The notes beneath the pieces are model-generated. The model ran no database searches. It was given only the letters and a program-made list of their open reading frames with translations, and was not told the DNA's origin. The translations under genes were made by a program, and so were the position numbers. A DNA stretch of 64,000 nucleotides, taken from assembly GCF_001421715.1 (NCBI RefSeq), contig NZ_LMKP01000004.1, positions 50,280 through 114,279 of the forward strand. Direction: 5' to 3'. Positions within the stretch are counted from its first letter, which is position 1. Each line of letters opens with the position of its first letter. Positions 1,753 to 52,752 of this stretch are shown here, piece by piece. The DNA comes from Sphingomonas sp. Leaf22 (lineage in GTDB: Bacteria > Pseudomonadota > Alphaproteobacteria > Sphingomonadales > Sphingomonadaceae).

Positions 1753-2031
1753 TCACCCCTTCTTCTTGTACATGGCAAGCATCCGCTCGGTGACGGCAAA
1801 CCCGCCGAAGATGTTGATGCTGGCCAGCACGACGCCCAGCAGCCCCAGCCACTTGGCTCCCGGCACGCCGGCGGCGGCAGCGGCGATCAGCGCGCCGACG
1901 ATGATGACCGAAGAGATCGCGTTGGTGACCGCCATCAACGGCGTATGCAGCGCGGGCGTCACCGACCAGACGACGTAATAGCCGACGAAACAGGCGAGGA
2001 CGAAGATCGACAGGATCGAGAGGAAGTCCAT
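1753..2031 (-). CDS. pntA2: NAD(P) transhydrogenase alpha subunit, membrane part
   Basis: A 92-residue, almost wholly hydrophobic protein corresponding to the C-terminal membrane domain of the fused PntA of enterobacteria (often named PntAB or PntA2). Three to four helices are visible, and the segment TPLMAVTNAISSVIIVGAL is the conserved core of the family. Together with PntA1 and PntB it forms the transhydrogenase complex in the cytoplasmic membrane. It begins only 3 bases after the stop of the DUF559 gene and ends 5 bases before pntB, so translation is probably coupled. Its normal partner gene pntA1 is about 940 bases upstream because a PH-domain gene and a nuclease gene lie between them. 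Confidence 0.95.
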   Translation of the reverse strand: MDFLSILSIFVLACFVGYYVVWSVTPALHTPLMAVTNAISSVIIVGALIAAAAAGVPGAKWLGLLGVVLASINIFGGFAVTERMLAMYKKKG

Positions 2032-2034
2032 CGG

Positions 2035-2433
2035 CTACTCCGCTGGGTGAAGGACGTTGAAATCCTCCCCGGGACGGGGAGGGGGACCAGCCGCAGGCTG
2101 GTGGAGGGGGGTGGCCACAAGCGTCGCGATCGCTTGAGCCACCGAGCCGACGTTCGCGATTACGCGGCGGGCGTCGATCCGCACAACGCGATAGCCCTGT
2201 TCGCGCAGGAACCGCAGCCGGGTCTCATCGCGCTGCGGGCGATCGGCGTAGTCATGACCGTCACCGTCGATCTCGACGATCAGCCGTGATTCCCGGCAGT
2301 AGAAATCAACGACATACGGTCCGACCGGATGCTGGCGGCGAAACTTTACGCCAGCTTTCCCTCCACGCAGCTTCTGCCACAGCATTGCCTCTGGCGGCGA
2401 CAGATCACGGCGCAGGCGGCGGGCGATCGTCAC
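2035..2433 (-). CDS. DUF559-family endonuclease-like protein
   Basis: A small protein (about 132 residues from a GTG at 2433) of the DUF559 family, which is related to Vsr-type and restriction-like nucleases. Seen in the sequence are the family hallmarks ARRLRRDLSPPEAMLWQKLR, KFRRQHPVGPYVVDFYC and LIVEIDGDGHD; the Asp of VDF and the acidic residues of VEIDG are the expected metal ligands. The frame is open upstream to 2694, but that part only reads through palindromic repeats and into the neighbouring gene, so I place the start close to the domain; this start is uncertain. The last 25 or so residues are encoded by a palindromic repeat (2061-2110). Inverted copies of the same repeat lie just upstream, so the gene looks like cargo of a small repeat-bounded unit inserted into the pnt operon. 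Confidence 0.8.
   Translation of the reverse strand: MTIARRLRRDLSPPEAMLWQKLRGGKAGVKFRRQHPVGPYVVDFYCRESRLIVEIDGDGHDYADRPQRDETRLRFLREQGYRVVRIDARRVIANVGSVAQAIATLVATPLHQPAAGPPPRPGEDFNVLHPAE
2061..2110 (+). repeat. Type A two-hairpin palindrome, downstream copy
   Basis: Two consecutive hairpins: CCTCCCC with GGGGAGG, then ACCAGC with GCTGGT, ending in GGAGGGGG. The copy is inside the 3' end of the DUF559 coding frame. Read on the opposite strand it matches the copies at 2459-2505 and 2517-2572, so the repeats face each other across the gene. Confidence 0.85.
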
Positions 2434-2458
2434 TTCCGGGCGTAGTGTGCGTGGAACT

Positions 2459-2505
2459 CCCCCTCCACCGGCTGCGCCGGTCCCCCTCCCCGTGCCGGGG
2501 AGGAT
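2459..2505 (-). repeat. Type A two-hairpin palindrome, upstream copy 1
   Basis: Same architecture as the copy at 2061-2110 but inverted: CTCCACC, a GGC/GCC stem, GGTCCCCCTCCCC, a short loop and GGGGAGGAT. It lies immediately upstream of the DUF559 start and supplies a purine-rich stretch that could act as a ribosome binding site. Confidence 0.85.
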
Positions 2506-2516
2506 AAGAGGGGCTG

Positions 2517-2572
2517 CCCCTCCACCACGCTTCGCGTGGTCCCCCTCCCCATGCTGCGCATGGGGAGGATTT
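2517..2572 (-). repeat. Type A two-hairpin palindrome, upstream copy 2
   Basis: A tandem second upstream copy: CCCCTCCACC, the stem CACGC/GCGTG, GGTCCCCCTCCCC, the stem ATGC/GCAT and GGGGAGGATTT. It ends 17 bases before the stop of the PH-domain gene. With the other two copies it defines an approximate 510-bp unit (2061-2572). Confidence 0.85.
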
Positions 2573-2588
2573 GGGGCGGGCGTTTCGT

Positions 2589-2957
2589 TCACCGCTTGGC
2601 CAGCACCAGTTCCGCCAGCAACCGCTGGATTGCGGCCGGGTCGGCATTGCGGCTGACCTTCAGCGACAGGGGCATCGCTTCGCCGGTCACCCACAGCTTC
2701 AGGTCGCTGTCGAGGTCGAACGTGCCCGCGCTTTCGACCGAGAAGCTGGTGATCGAGCGATACGGCACGCTGCGGAACGCGATTTTCGAGCCGGTCAGGC
2801 CCTGTACGTCGACCAGCACGAACCGGAAATTGGTCAGGAAGGCGGTGTCGCGCAGCGAGCGGAACGCGGCCAGCACCTCTTCGCCACCGATCAGCGCATG
2901 GCCGTATTTCTCGCGGATTTCGGCCGGGTCGACTTCGTGGCTGCTGAACAAACCCAT
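2589..2957 (-). CDS. PH-domain (bPH) small protein
   Basis: A 122-residue soluble protein beginning MGLFSSHEVDPAEIREKYG. The pattern, with an N-terminal helix, then FRSLRDTAFLTNFRFVLVDVQG, a short basic strand and RSITSFSVESAG, followed by DLKLWVTGE and a C-terminal helix, is that of the bacterial pleckstrin-homology family (bPH, PF08000 type). The function of these domains is mostly unknown; they often bind membranes or protein partners. The gene sits between pntA1 (gap 13 bases) and the DUF559 unit on the same strand and is probably transcribed with the transhydrogenase. No catalytic residues are visible. Confidence 0.85.
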   Translation of the reverse strand: MGLFSSHEVDPAEIREKYGHALIGGEEVLAAFRSLRDTAFLTNFRFVLVDVQGLTGSKIAFRSVPYRSITSFSVESAGTFDLDSDLKLWVTGEAMPLSLKVSRNADPAAIQRLLAELVLAKR

Positions 2958-2970
2958 ATTCGTTTCCTCG

Positions 2971-4098
2971 TCAGGCGGTCAGGCGTGGGTTCACGACCTG
3001 GCCGCTTTGCGTCAGGCGGATCGCCTGCGTCACTTCGTCGTCGGGCGGCAGGACGGGACGGCCGGCGTCCTTGTCCCAATAGGCCGCCAGAAAGTTGTAA
3101 AGGTTGCGCGCAAACAATGCCGATGCGTCCGCGGCCAGACGGCTGGGGACGTTGCGATGGCCGACGATGTTGACACCGTGACGCTGCACGACCTCGCCCG
3201 CGACCGATCCCTCGACATTGCCGCCCTGTTCGACCGCCAGATCGACGAGGACGCTGCCCGGTCGCATCGAGGCGACCTGTGCATCGCTGACGAGGCGCGG
3301 CGCGGGCTTGCCGGGGATCAGCGCGGTGGTGATGACGATGTCCTGCTTGGCGATATGGGCGGACACCAGTTCGGCCTGTGCCGCCTGATATTCGGCACTC
3401 ATTTCGCCGGCATAGCCGCCGGCACCCTCACCCTCGATCCCCGCCACCTTTTCGACGAAGATCGGCTTGGCACCGAGCGACTGGATCTGCTCCTTGGTCG
3501 CCGAGCGGACGTCGGTGGCGCTGACCTGCGCACCCAGCCGCCGCGCGGTGGCGATCGCCTGCAATCCCGCGACACCCACGCCCATCACGAAGACACGCGC
3601 CGCGCTGATCGTGCCGGCGGCGGTCATCATCATCGGAAAGGCGCGACCATATTCGGACGCGGCGTCGAGCACCGCCTTATACCCCGCCAGATTCGCCTGC
3701 GACGACAATATGTCCATCGATTGGGCGCGGGTGATGCGCGGCATCCATTCCATCGCCAGCGCCTCCAGCCCCAACGCGGCATAGCCATCGATCCGCGCCC
3801 GGTCGGCAAACGGATGGAGGGCCGCCACCAGCCATGCGCCACGCTTCGCGCCGCCCAGACTGTCGGGCGACGGCGGCGCCACGCCCAGCAGGATGTCGGC
3901 ATCGGCAAGTGCCCCCGCCCGGTCTGCAATGGTCGCGCCAGCCGCGGCATAGCCGGCATCGTCGATCGACGCGCCGGTGCCGGCACCCTGTTCGACGACG
4001 ACGGTCGCGCCGAGTGCGATCAGCTTCTTGACGGTTTCGGGGGTCGCGGCGACCCGGCGCTCGCCGGCAGCCTGTTCGGCGAGGAGCGCGACCTGCAC
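2971..4098 (-). CDS. pntA1: NAD(P) transhydrogenase alpha subunit, soluble part
   Basis: A 375-residue protein covering domain I of transhydrogenase, which binds NAD(H) on the cytoplasmic face. It is related to alanine dehydrogenase: the N-terminal segment ERRVAATPETVKKLIALGA and the Rossmann motif GVGVAGLQAIATARRLGA (about residues 172-190) are clear. It lacks the C-terminal membrane helices, which are encoded separately by pntA2. The start is a GTG at 4098, one base after the stop of the small oxidase-subunit gene; no ATG fits the family start better. The protein ends in a short tail after the usual domain I end, as expected for split versions. Confidence 0.96.
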   Translation of the reverse strand: MQVALLAEQAAGERRVAATPETVKKLIALGATVVVEQGAGTGASIDDAGYAAAGATIADRAGALADADILLGVAPPSPDSLGGAKRGAWLVAALHPFADRARIDGYAALGLEALAMEWMPRITRAQSMDILSSQANLAGYKAVLDAASEYGRAFPMMMTAAGTISAARVFVMGVGVAGLQAIATARRLGAQVSATDVRSATKEQIQSLGAKPIFVEKVAGIEGEGAGGYAGEMSAEYQAAQAELVSAHIAKQDIVITTALIPGKPAPRLVSDAQVASMRPGSVLVDLAVEQGGNVEGSVAGEVVQRHGVNIVGHRNVPSRLAADASALFARNLYNFLAAYWDKDAGRPVLPPDDEVTQAIRLTQSGQVVNPRLTA

Positions 4099-4225: not shown

Positions 4226-4391
4226 CGATGAACCTCTCCATACTGCGTCGTTCAGACAACTCTAACGCAGGTTGGACCAAGAACAAGCCCCGCACCGCCC
4301 CTGACGGTTTTCATGACCGTCTTAAGGCGAACTTTACGCCCCTTGGCGCAAACGGATGTCGATCCGGGACGGCAGGGACTTGGGAGCAGCG

Positions 4392-5822
4392 ATGACGCGA
4401 GACGGACAGCGAGTGCTGATGGTGATCGACGACGAACCGGCACAGCGCCGGTTGGTAGGGGCGATCGCGGGTCGGCGCGGCTGGCGGACAGTGTTCGCGA
4501 GCGATGCCGCAACGGCGCTGATGATGCTGAACACGCCGGACGGGCTTGCGCTCGATGCGGTGCTGCTCGACCATTGGACGCCCGATGCCGATGCACTGGC
4601 GTTGATCGCCGATCTGCGCGCGGCACGGCCGTTGCTGCCGATCCTGATGCTGACCGCCAATGAATCGGTCGCCGGCGCGGTCGCGGCGATGCGCGCGGGG
4701 GCGACCGACTTTCTGGTCAAGCCGCTGGCCGCCGAGCGTCTGCTTTCCGCACTGGAAGCGGCGGCGGGGGCGGGCGACCATGGCGAACTGCGCCCGCTCA
4801 CCGAGAAATTGTCGGCCTCGCTGGCGTTCGACGAGATCGTCGGTTCCGCCCCGCAATTCCGCGCGGCACTGGCCATCGCCGCCAAGGCGGCGCGCGCCCG
4901 CGTGCCGGTGCTGATCGAGGGTGAGAGCGGCGTCGGCAAGGAAGTCGTCGCCGAGGCGATCCACGCCGCCTCCCCGCGCGCCCGCAAGCCGATGGTCCGC
5001 GTCAATTGCGGCGCGATCGCCGCCAATCTGGTCGAAAGCGAGCTGTTCGGCCATGAAAAGGGCGCGTTCACCGGCGCGTTCGAACGCAAGGCCGGCCGGT
5101 TCCAGGAAGCCGATGGCGGCACCATTTTCCTCGACGAGATCGGCGAGATGCCGTTCGAGACGCAGGTGAAGCTGCTGCGCGTGCTGCAATCGGGCGAGAT
5201 CCAGTCGGTCGGCGCGCGCACGACGCGCGAGGTCGATGTCCGCGTGATCGCCGCGACCAACAAGACGTTGATGGCCGAGGTCGAGGCCGGGCGGTTCCGC
5301 GAGGACCTGTATTACCGGCTGAACGTCGTGCAGGTGACGATCCCGCCGCTTCGCGACCGGCGCGGCGATGTGCCGGCGCTGGCCCGCCATCTGCTGGCGC
5401 GGATCGCGCAACAGCCGGGGCTGCGGCAGTTGGGCATCACCGACGATGCCATCGCGCTGCTCAACACCTATGGCTGGCCGGGCAATGTCCGTCAGTTGCA
5501 GAATGCGCTGTTCCGGGCGGCGGTGCTGTGTGACGGCGACGCGCTGACCCGCGGCGACTTCCCGCAGATCGCCCAGATCGCGCAGGGCGACGCACCGCAA
5601 CCGGTGTCGCTGGTCCCGCGTCAGGACACGGCGGGCGGGGTCACGCTGTTCCGTCCCGACGGCCATCTGCGGATGCTGGAGGAGATCGAGGCCGACGTCA
5701 TCCGCCTCGCCATCGGTCATTATCGCGGCCGCATGACCGAAGTCGCACGGCGGCTGGGGATCGGGCGGTCGACGCTGTATCGCAAGCTGGGCGAATTGGG
5801 GATCGACCAGAGCGCGGCTTGA
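4392..5822 (+). CDS. Sigma-54-dependent response regulator (NtrC family)
   Basis: A 476-residue activator that works with sigma-54 RNA polymerase. It has an N-terminal receiver with likely phosphoacceptor Asp60 (VLLDHW) and a conserved KPL near residue 110. The AAA+ domain carries Walker A GESGVGKE (177-184), the sigma-54 contact loop GAFTGA (224-229) and the arginine-finger region near WPGNVRQLQN. At the C-terminus is a Fis-type helix-turn-helix (MTEVARRLGIGRSTLYRKLGE). I chose the ATG at 4392 because GGGAG lies six bases upstream; a longer frame begins at 4356. No histidine kinase is adjacent, so the partner is unknown. The usual DxxMPxxDG after the phosphoacceptor is altered (DHWTPDADA). 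It is divergent from the transhydrogenase operon. Confidence 0.92.
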   Translation: MTRDGQRVLMVIDDEPAQRRLVGAIAGRRGWRTVFASDAATALMMLNTPDGLALDAVLLDHWTPDADALALIADLRAARPLLPILMLTANESVAGAVAAMRAGATDFLVKPLAAERLLSALEAAAGAGDHGELRPLTEKLSASLAFDEIVGSAPQFRAALAIAAKAARARVPVLIEGESGVGKEVVAEAIHAASPRARKPMVRVNCGAIAANLVESELFGHEKGAFTGAFERKAGRFQEADGGTIFLDEIGEMPFETQVKLLRVLQSGEIQSVGARTTREVDVRVIAATNKTLMAEVEAGRFREDLYYRLNVVQVTIPPLRDRRGDVPALARHLLARIAQQPGLRQLGITDDAIALLNTYGWPGNVRQLQNALFRAAVLCDGDALTRGDFPQIAQIAQGDAPQPVSLVPRQDTAGGVTLFRPDGHLRMLEEIEADVIRLAIGHYRGRMTEVARRLGIGRSTLYRKLGELGIDQSAA

Positions 5823-12347: not shown

Positions 12348-12685
12348 GCGACTATCCGGCGCGGACCGGTCGCCGTTCGATCAACTGCCCCATCGTTACC
12401 CCGGACTTGTCGAGACCTCTGCGAAAGTATCGATTCCTGCCCCCTAGCGTACCCCCGCGCAGGCGGGGGTCCAGGGTTCCAAGCACAAGCCGTTGTTCTG
12501 CCTGGCTCTGGACCCCCGCCTGCGCGGGGGTACGGTCCCGTGTAGTCGAGGGCGCGACGTTCGCAGAAGCCTCGACGGATGACGGGGTGGCGGGGAGGAG
12601 AACGCTACCGCACCGTTCCGCCCGGACGCGGAAACCCCTGCCCCGTCAACCGTTTGCCTCGCTCCCCCATGCCGGAGCACCGCCC
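12348..12685. other. Gene-free stretch with palindromic repeat
   Basis: A 338-base gap after dgoA. Its main content is the type C palindrome at 12449-12533. I see no conserved reading frame or clear promoter; a downstream gene starts at 12686. Confidence 0.6.
12449..12533. repeat. Type C palindrome (GTACCCCCGCGCAGGCGGGGG)
   Basis: Two near-perfect 26-base inverted arms (GTACCCCCGCGCAGGC... and its complement ending GGGGGTAC) enclose a 30-base loop; each arm itself folds at GCGCAGGCG. It follows the dgoA operon and could also terminate transcription. Confidence 0.88.
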
Positions 12686-13168
12686 ATGTCGCATCCCCGT
12701 CCCGTCCTCGGCCTGTTCGCCGGGATCGCCGCCGGCCTGATCGCCGCCGCCGCGATGGCCGCGTTCCAGTCGGTCGCCGCCGGGCCGATGGGACAGGACC
12801 AGAGCGACGACGATCCCGCAACGGTGAAAGCCGCCGACAAGGTCGCGATCGCCACCACCGGCGACCGCGTCCCCGACGCCTACCGCCCGCAGGCGGGACA
12901 GGCGGTGCATTACCTGACCGGCGCGGCGCTGGGCGGGCTGTACGGCGTGCTCACCGAATATCGTCCGGGTGCGGCGCGCGGTTTCGGGAGCCTGTACGGT
13001 ATCGCGACCTCGGCGCTGCTCGACGAAACGGCGGTGCCGGCGACAGGGCTGGGGTCGGCGCCATGGGAGACGCCGGCCGCGACCCACGCCTATGGCGCGC
13101 TGGCGCATCTGGTGTTCGGGGTATCGCTGGAAGGGGCGAGGTCGCTGCTGGGTGGGCGACAGGGGTAG
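12686..13168 (+). CDS. DUF1440/YagU-like membrane protein
   Basis: A 160-residue protein with an N-terminal glycine- and alanine-rich membrane segment (VLGLFAGIAAGLIAAAAMAAF). It has two further weakly hydrophobic, glycine-rich stretches (AVHYLTGAALGGLYGVLTEY and ARGFGSLYGIATSALLDE) and ends in an AHLVFGVSLEGARSLLG helix. The layout resembles DUF1440 inner-membrane proteins such as YagU of E. coli. The middle charged segment (DQSDDDPATVKAADKVAI) should be outside the membrane. Its role is unknown. The nearest likely start is the ATG at 12686, with GGAGC upstream. Confidence 0.65.
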   Translation: MSHPRPVLGLFAGIAAGLIAAAAMAAFQSVAAGPMGQDQSDDDPATVKAADKVAIATTGDRVPDAYRPQAGQAVHYLTGAALGGLYGVLTEYRPGAARGFGSLYGIATSALLDETAVPATGLGSAPWETPAATHAYGALAHLVFGVSLEGARSLLGGRQG

Positions 13169-16359: not shown

Positions 16360-16614
16360 TCAATGCCGCAGCCGCCCCAGCAGCACATCCCGCGCCGCAT
16401 TGATCCGCCGCGCCAGATCGGCCGATCCGCCGCGATCGGGATGCACCGCCTGCATCAGTCGCCGGTGCGCGGCGCGGATTTCGCCTACCTTCGCATCCTT
16501 GCCGACGCCGAGGATCGCCCGCGCTTCCGCTTCGCCGCCGACCTTCTTCGGTTTGGCGCGCAGCCACAGCCAGAAAGCGAGGATGACCGCGACGATCAGG
16601 ACGAGCTTGAGCAT
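16360..16614 (-). CDS. Membrane-anchored J-domain protein
   Basis: An 84-residue protein made of one N-terminal membrane helix (MLKLVLIVAVILAFWLWLRA) and a short J domain. The J signature HPD is present in AVHPDRGGSAD and the helix II and III pattern is intact. Such small tail-anchored J proteins occur in many alphaproteobacteria; they would recruit DnaK to the membrane. The family is usually placed next to other housekeeping genes. It is 13 bases downstream of mipZ on the same strand and is probably co-transcribed with it. Confidence 0.88.
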   Translation of the reverse strand: MLKLVLIVAVILAFWLWLRAKPKKVGGEAEARAILGVGKDAKVGEIRAAHRRLMQAVHPDRGGSADLARRINAARDVLLGRLRH

Positions 16615-52273: not shown

Positions 52274-52752
52274 TTATTTGGCGTTAATTATACGCTGCAA
52301 AGCGCGGTCCCGCGGATCAACCCCATGTCCAGCTTCATCATGTCCGGCTCCAGGCTCCGCGAGAAGGCGCAGCCCCGGGTAACCGATGCCGAAGTCGTTG
52401 ATTGCAGTGGCGAAGCCACGTGCGCGACAGGATCCGATGATGCGCAGGACCTGCGGCACGTCGCACATCCGCTCGTCCCCGGTGAACTCGAACAGCAGTT
52501 TGGCGGGATCGAACTTGCAGATCATGTCCGGCCCGACGGCAGACCGCACGTCGCGCCCCGACTGCCCGTCCCGCCCCCGGACAGTGATTCACCGGCGAAG
52601 ATCGAGCCGGTCCCGATGTCGACGATCGGCTGAAACGCCATCATGATGTCCATGCCCAGGGACGCGGCAGTCGGACAGCCGCGGCGGGCGTCCATGGAGA
52701 CCGACCGACCCGGACCCGGCGACGTCCCTGTCGTAAGGTTCGACCATCTCAC
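52274..52752 (-). pseudogene. Broken EAL-domain phosphodiesterase fragment
   Basis: Two frames carry parts of an EAL (c-di-GMP phosphodiesterase) domain. Upstream (52522-52752) there is MMAFQPIVDIGTGSIFAGE, in which the EAL motif is replaced by ESL. Downstream (52274-52549) there is FDPAKLLFEFTGDE... RARGFATAINDFGIGYPGLRLLAEPGAG, a degenerate DDFG region. The central part (the catalytic helices) is missing and the frames do not join, so it is a remnant rather than a gene. It lies between the Tad genes and the histidine kinase gene. Confidence 0.75.

Follow-up and report, generated by a model that had tools for sequence, protein, structure and literature searches.

In pairs of MITEs and autonomous DNA transposons, the short form shares its ends with the gene-bearing form. 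In the REP/RAYT systems, according to the available portions of two studies, a gene located beside or between the repeats encodes a suspected enzyme, groups of repeats match specific enzymes, and the non-autonomous unit, the REPIN, is a pair of palindromic repeats in inverted orientation around a short interior (PMC3116915, PMC3733652). For the DUF559 domain family, the accessible part of a study of Caulobacter presents VsrA, a DUF559 protein, as a likely mismatch-repair endonuclease that is linked to the SOS response (PMC12907096).

Here, we describe a DUF559 gene enclosed by inverted two-hairpin repeats, termed arms, in a 64,000-nt stretch of the Sphingomonas sp. Leaf22 genome (the window). 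The system resembles a REPIN/RAYT pair in its inverted palindromic pairs with a short interior, in its associated gene, and in a repeat class that follows the relatedness of that gene. It differs in the enzyme, which is a predicted PD-(D/E)XK nuclease in place of the Y1 HUH transposase RAYT, in arms with two hairpins and no GTAG tag, and in the gene unit itself, which has a fixed-length terminal-repeat layout. We read it as a REPIN/RAYT-like pair in which palindromic repeats are combined with a dedicated restriction-fold enzyme, a predicted nuclease of the Vsr/homing-endonuclease fold. Literature searches, the reach of which left out bioRxiv and most subscription journals, found no published link between DUF559 and repetitive extragenic palindromic sequences, and no work joining REP, a flanking endonuclease, and Vsr.

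Organization of the DUF559 unit at the pnt locus

On the minus strand, the gene order is pntA1, a PH-domain gene, the DUF559 unit, pntA2, and pntB, the last being assigned by its place in the list of open reading frames (Table 1). The first-pass annotation had described a two-hairpin repeat that occurs once downstream of the gene and twice upstream in the opposite orientation, forms part of the end of the coding frame, and belongs to a unit that splits pntA1 from pntA2/pntB. The three repeats can be read directly from the sequence in these orientations, and the DUF559 open frame (2035–2694, minus strand) indeed continues through the downstream arm. The pnt genes are split as described, with the addition of the PH-domain gene, which was absent from that annotation and also lies in between. 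The open frame extends to 2694, and the GTG start codon at 2433 is our choice.

The gene between the arms matches PF04480 with an E value of 9e-29 in a profile search. Together with its arms it forms a compact unit of about 445 bp, in which the interior between the inner ends of the arm pattern is exactly 350 nt (2110–2459). An inverted-repeat finder aligned the arms over 34 nt at 85% and over 30 nt at 93% complementarity. Folded as single-stranded DNA, each of the three arms forms two hairpins (z −4.1, −3.3, and −5.4), and 0 of 200 shuffles folded as well as the arm in each case. Within the 64-kb window, the core 13-mer occurs without mismatch in the three arms only, and the GTAG tag is absent from the foot of the palindromes in all three.

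Table 1. Features of the DUF559 unit and its neighbors; positions are those of the window unless a contig is named.
Feature	Position	Strand	Remarks
pntA2 (PNTB_4TM)	1753..2031	-	Neighbor; reference gene for the site comparison
DUF559 gene (PF04480)	2035..2433	-	Predicted PD-(D/E)XK nuclease of the Vsr/homing-endonuclease fold
Downstream two-hairpin arm	2061..2110	+	AATCCTCCCC..GGGGAGGGGGACC-hairpin-GGTGGAGGGGG; inside the DUF559 open frame
Strict-pattern copy in the downstream arm	Leaf22 contig 52355-52388 (G000:C4)		
18-nt subterminal motif	2110..2127	+	Consensus GnTnnCCGCnnACnnnAC; motif derived from gene-less elements and then applied to gene units
18-nt subterminal motif, other inner end	2442..2459	-	Motif scoring
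Upstream two-hairpin arm	2459..2505	-	Inverted relative to 2061-2110
Second stacked arm	2517..2572	-	Same orientation, just outside the first upstream arm; also in genome G117
PH-domain gene, bacterial (PF08000)	2589..2957	-	Between pntA1 and the DUF559 unit; neighbor, outside the unit
pntA1 (AlaDh_PNT N and C domains)	2971..4098	-	Neighbor

A predicted restriction-fold nuclease

The predicted structural model of the DUF559 protein (pLDDT 86.9) matched the I-Bth0305I homing endonuclease domain (3r3p, E 3e-5) and Vsr (1vsr, E 6e-3) in a Foldseek search, as well as a putative endonuclease of Neisseria (3hrl). Residues D52, E63, D65, and H69 are invariant in 12 diverse DUF559 members. From its modeled fold, the protein is predicted to be a PD-(D/E)XK nuclease of the Vsr/homing-endonuclease fold. 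A reading as an anti-phage defense nuclease drew only weak PADLOC matches, to DpdF (E 0.001) and to a homing endonuclease (E 0.003).

The likeness to Vsr and I-Bth0305I lies in this predicted fold. However, the locus has no intron or split-gene target, the candidate target being the family of palindromic repeats on either side of the gene. VsrA of Caulobacter belongs to the same DUF559 domain family and likewise comes from an alphaproteobacterium, but it is interpreted there as acting in TG-mismatch repair; the string "palindrom" occurs 0 times in that article, and flanking repeats go unmentioned in its accessible part (PMC12907096). The Vsr-like fold and the connection of VsrA, with its DUF559 domain, to mismatch repair and SOS, as given in the same part of that source (PMC12907096), would suit an alternative in which the DUF559 gene is a host Vsr-like DNA-repair gene, the arms are regulatory hairpins captured by the gene, and the gene-less repeats described below were spread by another process.

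Bracketing of DUF559 genes across genomes

Bracketing was scored as the best local alignment between the left flank and the reverse complement of the right flank over 300 nt, with a threshold of 20 that was set after a first look at the scores. In Sphingomonadaceae, inverted palindromic arms bracket 49 of 53 DUF559 loci, comprising the three Leaf22 loci and the 30 best-scoring and 20 lowest-scoring loci among the matches listed. Of 206 control windows obtained by shifting along these loci, 0 reach the threshold, and the highest score in 265 shuffles is 18. A further set from the same genus gave 17 bracketed loci out of 20 (controls, 0/40), and named, mostly alphaproteobacterial genomes gave 62 out of 80 (controls, 3/430), these being the best 80 of at least 576 confirmed candidates and therefore a sample biased to the clade of the window. 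Among these best 80 of at least 576, five of the 12 loci from outside the Alphaproteobacteria are bracketed, one of them (Bipolaricaulota) doubtfully, as counted from record titles with the three loci that state no class (L209, L231, and L238) left out. The unbracketed loci number 4/53, 3/20, and 18/80 in the three sets, the last again for the best 80 of at least 576. The sets overlap slightly, as L213 and L388 share sequence. The shifted control windows were not matched to gene boundaries; the controls that were so matched, pntA2 genes (0/30) and short ORFs (0/97), contained no bracketed case (0/127 together).

The Escherichia coli K-12 gene ycjD, also a DUF559 gene (L274, 1908–2261), is not bracketed and was dropped as a model locus, with just degenerate repeat traces nearby. 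A degenerate CCCTCTCCC..GAGGGGG repeat forms the end of this gene, with a related repeat (CCCCTCTGGGGAGAGGGTTAGGGTGAGGGG) downstream.

The 49 bracketed units have a median outer length of 459 nt, and their downstream arm starts at a median of 4 nt past the domain, with the stop codon inside or beyond this arm in 43 of them. In the 53-locus Sphingomonadaceae set, 119 of 777 cross pairs, each combining a left arm with the right arm of a different locus, also match, and the arm classes are therefore shared between loci rather than unique. For the window class, the interior is exactly 350 nt in 41 of 63 distinct gene units. All 63 interiors of 280–420 nt encode DUF559, and no DDE or other transposase was found between the arms in these 63. 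Most of the 63 units were fetched by DUF559, and the two fetched by the repeat alone both contain DUF559 as well.

Hairpins at gene ends can serve as terminators, which counts in favor of captured regulatory hairpins around a repair gene. The bracketing, however, is found on both sides of the gene and so goes beyond its 3′ end.

Arm copies and gene-less elements in the Leaf22 genome

The Leaf22 genome (4.2 Mb in 45 contigs, rated 100% complete) contains 77 copies of the strict arm pattern and 0 of the reversed pattern, which rules out chance as the source of the repeat. Neighboring strict copies form 25 convergent pairs, compared with one divergent and one same-direction pair, and 50 of the 77 copies stand in these 25 inverted pairs. 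The gap is 30–41 nt and free of any gene in 24 of the 25 convergent pairs, the remaining gap of 350 nt being that of the DUF559 unit in the window. The genome is therefore rich in short elements that have these ends but no gene, and fixed-spacing inverted palindromic pairs without a gene, a feature of the REPIN layout, are present. Among the loci fetched by the repeat, 33 of 35 short pairs have a gap of 30–41 nt. The second hairpin varies in sequence and keeps its pairing, with 110 of 111 cells paired in 37 distinct variants (43 typed rows out of the 77 copies) compared with a shuffle maximum of 99. A reading of the gene-less spacers as palindromes was dropped, because their self-complementarity (median 7) is barely above that of shuffles (median 6).

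The gene-less interiors of 37–38 nt have an 18-nt motif at each end, and the same motif is located just inside the arms of gene units, with a median score of −0.5 at 126 ends compared with −13.4 at 504 internal windows of gene units (p 2e-26). The gene-bearing and gene-less forms share their termini in this way, arms and 18-nt subterminal motif alike, and because the motif is common to both, the short form has the appearance of a long form from which the inner part was deleted. This is the point of likeness with MITEs, in which shared ends would likewise arise by internal deletion. The points of difference are that no transposase was found, that no convincing target-site duplication was seen in the intervals compared, and that gene-bearing copies were not seen moving.

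In an alternative reading, DUF559 would be a passenger, and the units would be ordinary MITE-type elements whose classical DNA transposon or RAYT the assembly lacks. The gene-less elements do show the terminal-inverted-repeat, fixed-length layout of MITEs, and an assembly in 45 contigs leaves room for a missing gene. However, the Y1 transposase profile (PF01797) has 0 matches in the Leaf22 genome, complete by its rating, with matches of the same profile in 5 of 14 genomes as a control, and the RAYT explanation was rejected on this ground. The consistent presence of DUF559 in the window-class interiors of 280–420 nt speaks against a passenger as well, although longer interiors might hold a larger transposase gene, and the correlation of DUF559 with arm class across genera would be surprising for a passenger. 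We regard the MITE reading as the least probable of those considered here.

Another high-copy inverted element, of the GGTTCGAGCAGCTTCGAGCTTGTCGAGAAGCG type, was observed at 12641–12761 and 16378–16498 of locus L115. Among the matches listed, elements of this type are found many times over in five of the six sister genomes.

Pairing of arm class with nuclease, and copy number

The three DUF559 genes of the Leaf22 genome are all bracketed, each by a different arm class. The two arm classes other than that of the window give 28 matches in all, of which three are gene-flanking arms, and several form inverted pairs. Across 49 loci from many genera, DUF559 protein identity is correlated with arm similarity (Mantel r 0.35, 0 of 2000 permutations, a statistic that ignores species phylogeny). 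In a set of 151 congeners, genomes with a stronger best match to DUF559 tend to have more copies of the strict arm pattern (Spearman 0.60, a statistic that ignores descent). The 12 congeners without a DUF559 match hold 0–6 copies, none of them reaching 20, so that the repeats are not equally frequent without DUF559; among congeners with a best DUF559 E value below 1e-36, 21 of 32 have 20 or more. The relation between copy number and DUF559 is imperfect, because in six genomes that contain at least 20 window-type copies the E value of the best DUF559 match does not go below 1e-25. Also against the pair, several arm classes of genome G010 have few gene-less copies or none (1, 0, 9, 2, 0, and 1 in a 400-kb sample).

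The first-pass annotation had suggested that this may be a repeat/nuclease pair analogous to REP sequences and the RAYT protein that can mobilize them, with a restriction-fold (Vsr-like) protein that would act on the repeat. This suggestion is supported in part. As a specific association, this analogy is strongly supported by the sequence comparisons, namely the bracketing of all three Leaf22 DUF559 genes, the class correlation, and the copy number. A freely transposing gene unit is not supported, in view of the conserved sites described below.

Conserved sites, inheritance, and change in place

Among the 30 closest loci, the pntA1–pntA2 site carries DUF559 in 12, and the gene is thus not always there. 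Judged by eye, arms are present on both sides in 11 of these 12, with L049 as the exception; the left arm of L056 is cut by a contig end. In L049, a gene-less pair adjoins the DUF559 gene that has no arms, and in L057 a gene-less paired element is located between pntA2 and pntB, besides a DUF559 unit. Four of the other 18 pnt loci have a gap of 26–27 nt, among them that of G087, a genome with no window-type arm copy at all. Two DUF559 allele classes occur at the pnt site. Compared with the window, genomes G132 and G128 are 98 and 98% identical in the PH-domain gene and 94 and 94% in pntA1, and their DUF559 genes at this site are 82 and 55% identical to that of the window; when G132 and G128 are compared with each other elsewhere in the genome, their identity is 90%. 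The PH-domain gene is also variable at this site, being undetected in many relatives and present without DUF559 in L044, L054, and L055.

At gene-less sites in sister species, the position is kept, the loops and spacer differ, and some sites have a single hairpin only. Site A of L115 has a single hairpin in G117 and G129 and a full paired element in the other sister genomes, and the single hairpin is like the scar of a deletion between the two outer hairpins. Between L086 (1417–1995) and L093 (1417–1999), the DUF559 unit is inverted with breakpoints exactly at the arms, and both flanks match on the opposite strand.

Among 163 loci, 54 of 56 DUF559 pairs with at least 74% nucleotide identity share flanking sequence (two of the 54 represent one locus fetched twice). 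The two close pairs with unrelated flanks, L220/L240 and L262/L266, are both between different genera by their titles, and no recent movement of the gene unit was seen among the 56 close pairs. Transposition of the gene unit, and free transposition in particular, is not supported, because close relatives of a unit occupy the same loci; from these comparisons, the gene units look vertically inherited. Target-site duplications were searched for in 16 intergenic intervals (9 + 7) in up to six sister genomes, seven of the 16 intervals holding window-class elements in the Leaf22 genome. A duplication was suggested at one interval only, site B, the other intervals being occupied or too diverged. Site B (L114, about 4318–4470) is filled there and empty in G129 and G087, and the comparison suggested a short flanking duplication (TCGCGTGA-like), which may reflect preserved adjoining stop and start codons.

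Gene units that look vertically inherited at fixed loci would also be expected of a host repair gene. However, capture of hairpins by such a gene does not by itself explain the correlation between arm class and DUF559 relatedness, the 18-nt subterminal motif common to both forms, the constant interiors of 350 nt and 30–41 nt, or the low copy numbers without DUF559. In view of these and of the bracketing on both sides of the gene, we consider the repair-gene explanation unlikely.

Alternatively, the repeats could be hot spots of insertion or recombination, with DUF559 genes inserting into existing gene-less elements, so that they target the repeats without spreading them. A nuclease of homing fold that targets the repeat would then behave as a homing gene in its own site, and the alternative DUF559 alleles at the same pnt site agree with this. 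However, in 43 of 49 units the frame of DUF559 takes in an arm, and genomes without DUF559 have few copies; for these two reasons, the repeats appear to need the gene. Such insertion into pre-existing repeats therefore appears quite improbable.

Proposed mechanism

The best explanation, which we hold with moderate confidence, is that the DUF559 gene and its two inverted arms are one unit, the protein of which likely acts on arms anywhere and would thereby be the trans-acting driver of the gene-less elements. By analogy, the nuclease is predicted to spread or maintain the arm repeats, a job that is familiar from an unrelated enzyme family. The DUF559 nuclease would recognize its own two-hairpin arm, possibly in a hairpin or cruciform form, and nick or cut it, and repair of the break would use a different arm-bounded element as the template to be copied. 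Conversion of this homing-like kind would leave the sites in place and swap the content between and inside the arms, and it might on rare occasions seed new gene-less elements. Repair that joins two arms could leave inversions and single-hairpin scars. With such cutting and copying, one would expect positions to stay fixed as their content changes, units to become inverted between their arms, single hairpins to be left behind, arm classes to match their nuclease, and the repeats to depend on the gene. The DUF559 gene itself appears to be mostly vertically inherited, and RAYT genes, too, are described as vertically inherited.

GIY-YIG genes and significance

Small GIY-YIG (PF01541) genes of the same bacterial family are bracketed at 33 of 52 distinct loci, compared with 0 of 172 control windows. 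The two sets examined (20/33 and 14/20; L305, L309 of the Leaf22 genome, L340–L368, and L429–L448) have one locus in common (L433 is identical to L356), and L363, which is cut by a contig end, was dropped; the 172 controls include the repeated locus. The brackets are other inverted palindromic repeat families, and some of the arms are of the CGTC-tagged REP type; the arm pair of L348 reads CGTCATTCCCGCGAAGGCGGGAATCCA, the layout described for CGTC repeats. According to the accessible part of a 2013 survey (PMC3733652), CGTC repeats apparently have no transposase of their own and show no association with transposase genes. A 400-kb sample of G164, where one of the GIY-YIG genes has such arms, contained 0 further copies of the CGTC type, and the link between GIY-YIG and CGTC repeats therefore stays a lead. 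No literature on GIY-YIG with repetitive extragenic palindromic sequences was found by searches that did not reach bioRxiv and most subscription journals.

We tentatively propose, at somewhat less than even likelihood, a class of bacterial repeat systems run by small stand-alone nucleases in place of transposases, in which DUF559 proteins would serve C-rich two-hairpin repeats and GIY-YIG proteins other palindromes, including the CGTC type (CGTCATTCC..GGAATCCA). Each nuclease would cut its own palindromes, which would then be spread or exchanged by homing-like repair. As for the origin of short palindromic repeats without a RAYT, the regular bracketing of DUF559 genes points to a specific candidate enzyme and its substrate and makes the idea testable. 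If the DUF559 pair is real, the family would gain a role, and several high-copy intergenic elements of Sphingomonas and its relatives would be explained. Under the wider proposal, nucleases would have made a large share of the short repeats in alphaproteobacterial genomes.
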